This document shows, piece by piece, positions 32,116 through 32,530 of a stretch of 35,937 bases of DNA. Each line of letters opens with the position of its first letter. Position 1 is the stretch's first letter. This DNA is from Candidatus Gastranaerophilales bacterium (GTDB lineage Bacteria > Cyanobacteriota > Vampirovibrionia > Gastranaerophilales > Gastranaerophilaceae). The stretch is from the NCBI GenBank assembly GCA_944325075.1, contig CALUYU010000021.1, positions 1 to 35,937 of the forward strand, in the 5' to 3' direction. The position numbers were made by a program, and so were the translations under genes. The notes under the pieces are model-generated. The model saw nothing but the letters and a program-made list of their open reading frames with translations, was not told where the DNA came from and ran no database searches.

Positions 32116-32174
32116 CCGCAGCAAAAACAATATTATTTCGCACATTTTTATAGTAAAATAAAATTAATAATTGC
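32116..32174 (+). promoter_or_regulatory. tRNA promoter region, first copy
   Basis: This 59-base segment is nearly the same as the last part of each 141-bp unit (a few mismatches near CCGCAGCAAAAACAATATTA) and as the segment just before the intact tRNA. It contains TATAGT and TAAAAT boxes. It places a promoter-like leader in front of the first tRNA-like sequence. Confidence 0.5.
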
Positions 32175-32262
32175 GGGCTGCTAGCTCAGGTGGTTAGAGC
32201 ACTCTGCCGAACAAAAACGATTATATATCGTTTTTGTGAGAGGACCTGATAAGGCACCGCAA
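32171..32262 (+). ncRNA. tRNA-like RNA candidate, unit 1
   Basis: Begins like tRNA-Ile (GGGCTGCTAGCTCAGGTGGT then TAGAGC, giving an intact D-arm GCTC/GAGC), but diverges after position 32200. Possible fold: outer stem TTGCGG (32171-32176) with CCGCAA (32257-32262), the D-arm, a long arm CTCT ... ACAAAAACGAT / ATCGTTTTTGT ... AGAG (32202-32242) and a small CCT-GATA-AGG hairpin that retains the tRNA-Ile anticodon-loop sequence. There is no T-arm. It is repeated exactly in unit 2. No expression evidence exists from sequence alone. Confidence 0.4.
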
Positions 32263-32456
32263 CAAAAACAATATTGTTTCGCACATTTTTATAGTAAAAT
32301 AAAATTAATAATTGCGGGCTGCTAGCTCAGGTGGTTAGAGCACTCTGCCGAACAAAAACGATTATATATCGTTTTTGTGAGAGGACCTGATAAGGCACCG
32401 CAACAAAAACAATATTGTTTCGCACATTTTTATAGTAAAATAAAATTAATAATTGC
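32175..32456 (+). repeat. Two identical 141-bp tandem units before tRNA-Ile
   Basis: GGGCTGCTAGCTCAGGTGGT starts at 32175, 32316 and 32457, exactly 141 bases apart. The first two are complete, identical units; the third continues as the intact tRNA-Ile. Each unit holds a tRNA 5' part, an inserted hairpin, and a promoter leader for the next unit. Identical sequence implies recent duplication or active homogenisation. Confidence 0.9.
32312..32403 (+). ncRNA. tRNA-like RNA candidate, unit 2
   Basis: Exact repeat of unit 1, shifted by 141 bases, with the same D-arm, long ACAAAAACGAT/ATCGTTTTTGT hairpin and CCTGATAAGG element. Its downstream leader directly precedes the intact tRNA-Ile. Confidence 0.4.
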
Positions 32457-32530
32457 GGGCTGCTAGCTCAGGTGGTTAGAGCGCACCCCTGATAAGGGTG
32501 AGGTCGGTGGTTCGAGTCCACTGCGGCCCA
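32457..32530 (+). tRNA. tRNA-Ile (GAU)
   Basis: A 74-base cloverleaf: acceptor GGGCTGC with GCGGCCC and discriminator A; D-arm GCTCAGGTGGTTAGAGC; anticodon arm CACCC-CTGATAA-GGGTG with anticodon GAU; variable AGGTC; T-arm GGTGG-TTCGAGT-CCACT. CCA is not encoded (TAT follows the discriminator). It is intact, unlike the two tRNA-like units upstream, and is followed by a strong terminator. Confidence 0.95.

Follow-up and report, generated by a model that had tools for sequence, protein, structure and literature searches.

The tRNA-Ile(GAU) locus

The window, a stretch of 35,937 nt from a Candidatus Gastranaerophilales bacterium, is one contig of a 2.26-Mb assembly that has 107 contigs in total. 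Near its 3′ end lies an intact tRNA-Ile(GAU) gene (32457..32530, + strand), found by ARAGORN and by Rfam RF00005 at 63.6 bits, with a tandem array on the same strand before it. Unit 1 (32116..32256, +) consists of a leader, the 5′ half of tRNA-Ile, an inserted element that we call E, and CCTGATAAGG; unit 2 (32257..32397, +) has the same body, and a third copy of the unit leader (32398..32456, +) stands directly before the intact gene. Local alignment to the intact unit reveals a decayed third unit at ~32017..32120 (+), with a remnant of E at ~32071-32105; its score of 55 compares with a shuffle mean of 26.9 (sd 4.9, maximum 45, 300 shuffles). An earlier note on this DNA, made from the letters alone, had described two identical 141-bp units. 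The units are there and their bodies are identical, with leaders that differ at two positions, and its general picture of a tandem tRNA-like array of near-identical copies is supported. The same architecture recurs in many independent assemblies, which rules out a local assembly artefact, a concern that the note had raised; the unit copy number in the present assembly could be inaccurate.

In each unit, the 5′ half of tRNA-Ile runs through the D-arm and is followed by the insert, CCTGATAAGG and CCGCAA. The strands that could close a unit are present as described, TTGCGG at 32171-32176 and CCGCAA at 32257-32262, the latter extending unit 1 to position 32262. So are the 11-bp hairpin ACAAAAACGAT/ATCGTTTTTGT and CCTGATAAGG. 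The hairpin is real, and the insert is larger than it, a 43-nt member of a repeat family. The two copies of E, at 32201..32243 (+; covariance model R1) and 32342..32384 (+), each score 65.6 bits against the covariance model (E-value = 1e-10), the first being made up of ACTCTGCCGA, an 11-bp stem with a 5-nt loop, and TGAGAGG.

The 141-bp unit has a strong predicted fold, with z = -4.3 for RNA and z = -4.1 for DNA, and none of 200 dinucleotide shuffles was as good. The RNA fold that is predicted is multi-branched and closed, and not a cloverleaf in the strict sense. The units lack the complete cloverleaf with T-arm of a tRNA gene, and ARAGORN and Rfam detect only the gene at 32457-32530.

The promoter of tRNA-Ile, TTGATT-17-TAGATT (31967..31995, +), was recognized from its sequence and from conservation of the motif in relatives without an array. 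Here it lies ~460 bp from its gene, whereas relatives that lack E (e.g. L025, L026, L030) have the motif a few tens of bases 5′ of tRNA-Ile; the array thus parts the promoter from the gene. Promoters retained within the units themselves, as the earlier note had it, apply to the Ile units at most, since in the other units that we examined, nothing but a short AT-rich leader separates the copies.

Just 3′ of tRNA-Ile, the window encodes a Mu/Tn7-type transposase (Mu-transpos_C, 597 aa; 32620-35608, +), preceded in that interval by a 234-aa protein without a match. A short repeat, TAATAGGTTTCTGGG, stands at both 32619 and 32642 and might be part of the end of a Mu/Tn7-type element. At the other end of the window (292-9867, - strand) is a Druantia-like phage defence cluster, with a DruE-type helicase (1706 aa), DruL- and DruF-like proteins and, between them, an unmatched protein of 585 aa.

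E is a 43-nt hairpin with near-invariant ends and a compensated stem

Across its family, E is composed of ACTCTGCCGA, a stem-loop and NGAGAGG. Its ends are near-invariant (ACTCTGCCGA on the left, GAGAGG on the right), in part because our pattern search required both; in a model search without that requirement, the ends are still mostly intact in the present genome. The stem is variable with Watson-Crick compensation, and its covariation score is 0.374, compared with 0.130 for shuffled and at most 0.119 for slid controls. Among the nine outer stem positions, counted across 114 distinct inner sequences, 92.6% are Watson-Crick and 2.2% are G-T, with G-T pairs found mostly at the outermost pair. 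This scarcity of G-T among predominantly Watson-Crick pairs favors a DNA hairpin, which is what the stem looks like. Neighboring units of one array (L126) show paired changes in both stem arms; these could reflect hairpin-templated correction, so covariation alone is no proof of selection.

The arms of E are paired, asymmetric through a GCCGA bulge, and E has no coding capacity. The flank that follows GAGAGG begins with TAG in 34 of 136 distinct flanks and with TAA in 21 of 136, the remainder being varied. By eye, the internal loop GA/GAGA beside CTGCC/GGTAG, seen in E at all loci, could form a kink-turn-like RNA motif.

E is nearly family-wide

Using a covariance model built from 32 E variants, we found 17 copies of E in the present genome, where it occurs at other tRNA genes, with periods of ~97-132 bp, as well as at intergenic sites. 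Of 86 genomes in the same family, 82 carry E, with between one and at least 44 copies each (44 is the number of candidates scored, and the top counts are therefore lower bounds), and so do four genomes that belong to two further families within the order Gastranaerophilales. The covariance-model search listed no match outside this order. More than 117 public loci carry E, mostly labelled Candidatus Gastranaerophilales or Melainabacteria. On one prophage-like viral contig (L170, 3449-3492, - strand), E and a following hairpin sit among structural genes. Several contigs terminate inside E arrays, suggesting that assembly cut some of the arrays short; for these gut bacteria, the arrays are a frequent place for contigs to end.

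Within one genome, copies from separate sites are about as similar to each other as copies from different genomes (0.660 vs 0.640, with 170 of 2000 permutations as high). The excess within genomes is not significant, a weak negative given our strict definition of different context, and so lends no support to recent copying of E inside genomes. Searches with E gave no score above the curated threshold in Rfam 15 and no match among phage records, and we found no description of it in the open-access literature. E is apparently undescribed, in agreement with the earlier note, which knew of no element of this form.

Beside tRNA and tmRNA genes, E nearly always points to the intact gene

At the public loci, 50 of 121 E clusters have a tRNA or tmRNA gene no more than 450 bp away, and a contig end cuts 28 of the remaining 71. 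In 47 of these 50, an intact gene lies downstream in E's own direction (~2e-11 against an even split), with 33 arrays in sense, before the 5′ end of the gene, and 14 in antisense, after its 3′ end. We observe this orientation rule directly, and it is strong enough to constrain the mechanism behind E. The neighbors include genes for tRNA-Leu, Lys, Pro, Val, Met, Thr, Arg, Gln, Glu and Phe and for tmRNA. In the sense arrays that we read, E is in or adjoins the D-arm; in the antisense arrays read it is in the T-arm, tmRNA included. E has come to lie repeatedly beside tRNA and tmRNA genes that are left undestroyed, and in the arrays structured repeats are placed between tRNA promoters and genes.

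The specificity to tRNA-Ile in the earlier note is not supported, as the same insert stands, in either orientation, beside tmRNA and other tRNA genes, and many of its sites have no tRNA at all. Most non-Ile units have no anticodon loop. Retention of that loop is likewise not supported as a feature of the units in general, a tRNA-Ile decoy or anti-nuclease sponge is unlikely, and the tRNA-specific roles that had been proposed do not fit the wider E family.

Two insertion points can occur in one tRNA type. A single tRNA array (L151) contains two insertion points and different E stems, and stems differ in L145 too. The flank duplicated at tRNA genes varies in length; at the tRNA arrays there is no target-site duplication of constant length. 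At tRNA-Ile, E can be present or absent within one genus. The insert junction there is shared by several genera, whose stems and closing strands differ; this sharing also fits old inheritance. Some copies of tRNA-Ile that are partial or fold back lack E (L027, L037), which indicates that partial duplication is separable from E. At one locus (L083, ~2107-2300, - strand), a tRNA(CAU)-like gene is split by a single E insertion, and we detected no intact tRNA copy right after the interrupted gene.

E replaces a few nucleotides of intergenic palindromes

Outside tRNA neighborhoods, E is often found inside intergenic palindromes. Comparison of occupied with empty copies shows that E plus 0-3 nt replaces ~5-6 nt, at the loop or between two helices. 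For example, GGTACAC/GGAGT/GCGAG becomes GGTACAC/E-TA/GCGAG, and TTTTACG/GAAGT/GACC becomes TTTTACG/E-TA/GACC. One palindrome family has two insertion points, after GATAAG and after GATAAGGAGC.

Many units share an architecture of closing stem, E, second hairpin and closing strand, and in many the right arm is the reverse complement of the unit's target. The closing strand often complements its own left flank (pairing of 7.80, vs 6.85 with sd 0.10 for permuted assignments), and the 50 nt 3′ of E are predicted to fold more strongly than their shuffles (mean z -1.37); both effects are clear as averages and not in every unit. At tRNA-Ile the closing stems are TTGCGG/CCGCAA, GGGCT/AGCCC and AGCATTTGA/TCAAATGCT, the last identified by eye.

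Candidate genes for mobilizing E

No protein gene recurs within 2.5 kb of E. RAYT genes occur in about a third of the family's genomes. Those examined are flanked by their own GTAG-type palindromes and not by E, which lies near only three of the RAYT loci, and RAYT genes are undetected in some E-rich genomes; we therefore rejected RAYT as the mover. Several distinct GTAG-tagged palindromes, e.g. GTAGGTTGGGGTTTCTACCCCAAC, accompany the family's RAYT genes (L196-L214). At one locus (L202, 1690-2700, - strand), a RAYT gene, again accompanied by GTAG palindromes, has apparently inserted into the hairpin loop of an E, with E halves flanking it.

Reverse transcriptase and IS110 genes were set aside because their copy numbers do not track E and they are undetected in several E-rich genomes; G031, with 40 copies of E, had no detectable RAYT, reverse transcriptase or IS110 gene. 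Tyrosine integrases are present in every genome tested, with counts that do not follow E. A larger element with half-E ends was also discarded, as the isolated half sites are decayed, cut-off or nested copies, or other sequence.

E may be a mobile hairpin that inserts into hairpin loops

By a narrow preference, we read E as a non-autonomous mobile hairpin that acts at the DNA level and inserts into hairpin loops and junctions, with tandem duplication preserving the tRNA gene. This reading accounts for the dispersal of E, the exactness of its ends, the variety of its targets, its occurrence in either orientation, the existence of empty sites and the pairing of its stem. Also in its favor are the pairs of insertion points within one palindrome family and within one tRNA array, the presence or absence of E at tRNA-Ile within one genus, and the copy on a prophage-like contig. 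From these observations we infer active movement, the DNA level, an enzyme and the order of events. E would enter folded DNA, single-stranded or cruciform, at a hairpin loop or at the unpaired junction between two helices, replacing ~5-6 nt of its target. Such targets are tRNA D-arms, the opposite-strand T-arms of tRNA and tmRNA genes, and intergenic palindromes. The near-invariant ends would be the recognition site of a putative enzyme acting in trans; in the stem, pairing would matter and sequence would not. Survival of the tRNA genes would account for the duplication that accompanies insertions there: surviving events would carry a tandem duplication of the gene's outer part, which at tRNA-Ile would include promoter-like sequence, and the gene would be kept intact. 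The resulting direct repeats would then allow units to multiply and homogenize into arrays.

Two observations speak against this mobile-hairpin reading to a lesser degree, the lack of a significant excess in likeness among copies of one genome and the lack of a target-site duplication of constant length. Its main weaknesses are that no enzyme was found and that the tRNA-Ile junction is common to several genera, and for these reasons a functional tRNA-like RNA keeps some probability. The units could be structured RNAs, tRNA-like or with a three-way junction, in a pre-tRNA leader transcribed from the tRNA promoter, with E bound by a protein of the host and the fold maintained by the closing stem together with the second hairpin. 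We regard this as doubtful, and it is the alternative we take most seriously. It would explain the strong predicted fold of the unit, the near-invariance of E's ends across the whole family, the preference of closing strands for their own left flank over those of other loci (7.80 vs 6.85) and the way in which different closing stems at tRNA-Ile seem to serve the same job. However, 14 of the 47 arrays are antisense to the tRNA, many copies of E have no tRNA nearby, G-U pairs are almost absent, occupancy is patchy, and Rfam holds no match. A related and unlikely idea is that a single conserved hairpin, recognized by a dedicated host protein, is the core around which a family of tRNA-like structured RNAs has been rebuilt independently from many different tRNAs, tmRNAs and palindromes.

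Template switching during replication, at tRNA genes and other hairpins, might instead produce fold-back duplications, with E spreading solely by gene conversion between palindromes and no dedicated enzyme. The right arms that are reverse complements of a unit's own target, the E-less fold-back or partial tRNA-Ile copies (L027, L037) and the paired stem-arm changes between units of one array (L126) are all in keeping with it; plain template switching leaves unexplained the exact ends of E in unrelated flanks, and we consider the idea improbable. Finally, tRNA and tmRNA genes are classic integration sites and every genome tested has integrases, so the units might be attachment-site scars of integrative elements whose tyrosine recombinases use tRNA genes. 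This is highly improbable, as neither an integrase nor any other gene recurs next to the arrays, E-rich G016 has only two integrase matches, and E occupies intergenic palindromes as well. Whether it proves to be a mobile hairpin or an RNA, E points to a new hairpin-targeting enzyme or a new structured RNA in bacteria that are known largely through metagenomes.

Comparison with known elements

E resembles REP elements and MITEs yet lacks some defining features of each. Like REP/REPIN sequences with their RAYTs, it is a short, dispersed, extragenic imperfect hairpin, non-autonomous and with a compensated variable stem, and some E-bearing genomes have RAYT genes. One end of a REP palindrome bears a GTAG or CGTC tag that is unpaired (PMC3733652), whereas E has no consistent tag of this kind. 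A cognate RAYT gene is flanked by its palindrome in inverted orientation (PMC2817692), whereas a cognate RAYT for E was not found, the local RAYTs having other GTAG palindromes. REP abundance usually exceeds 100 copies per genome (PMC2817692), and for E we counted 1 to at least 44 per genome, the top counts being lower bounds. E arrays also differ in being tied to tRNA genes.

With bacterial MITEs (RUP, NEMIS, Nezha and similar), E shares small size, lack of coding sequence and inverted-repeat arms. Unlike them, it is ~43 bp in all, replaces 5-6 nt with no target-site duplication of fixed length, and has no visible parental insertion sequence among the genes within 2.5 kb. Integrative elements of tRNA and tmRNA genes likewise leave a partial tRNA copy on one side and a restored intact gene on the other; E, in contrast, has neither integrase nor cargo and uses many other hairpin loops. 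Integron attC sites have the core boxes RYYYAAC and GTTRRRY. Like E, they can fold as single strands, stand in tandem and vary at the stem tip, but E lacks the conserved AAC/GTT boxes, its invariant parts being ACTCTGCCGA and GAGAGG, and we saw no cassette genes. Whole units, spacers included, are near-identical inside an E array, whereas the spacers of a CRISPR array differ.
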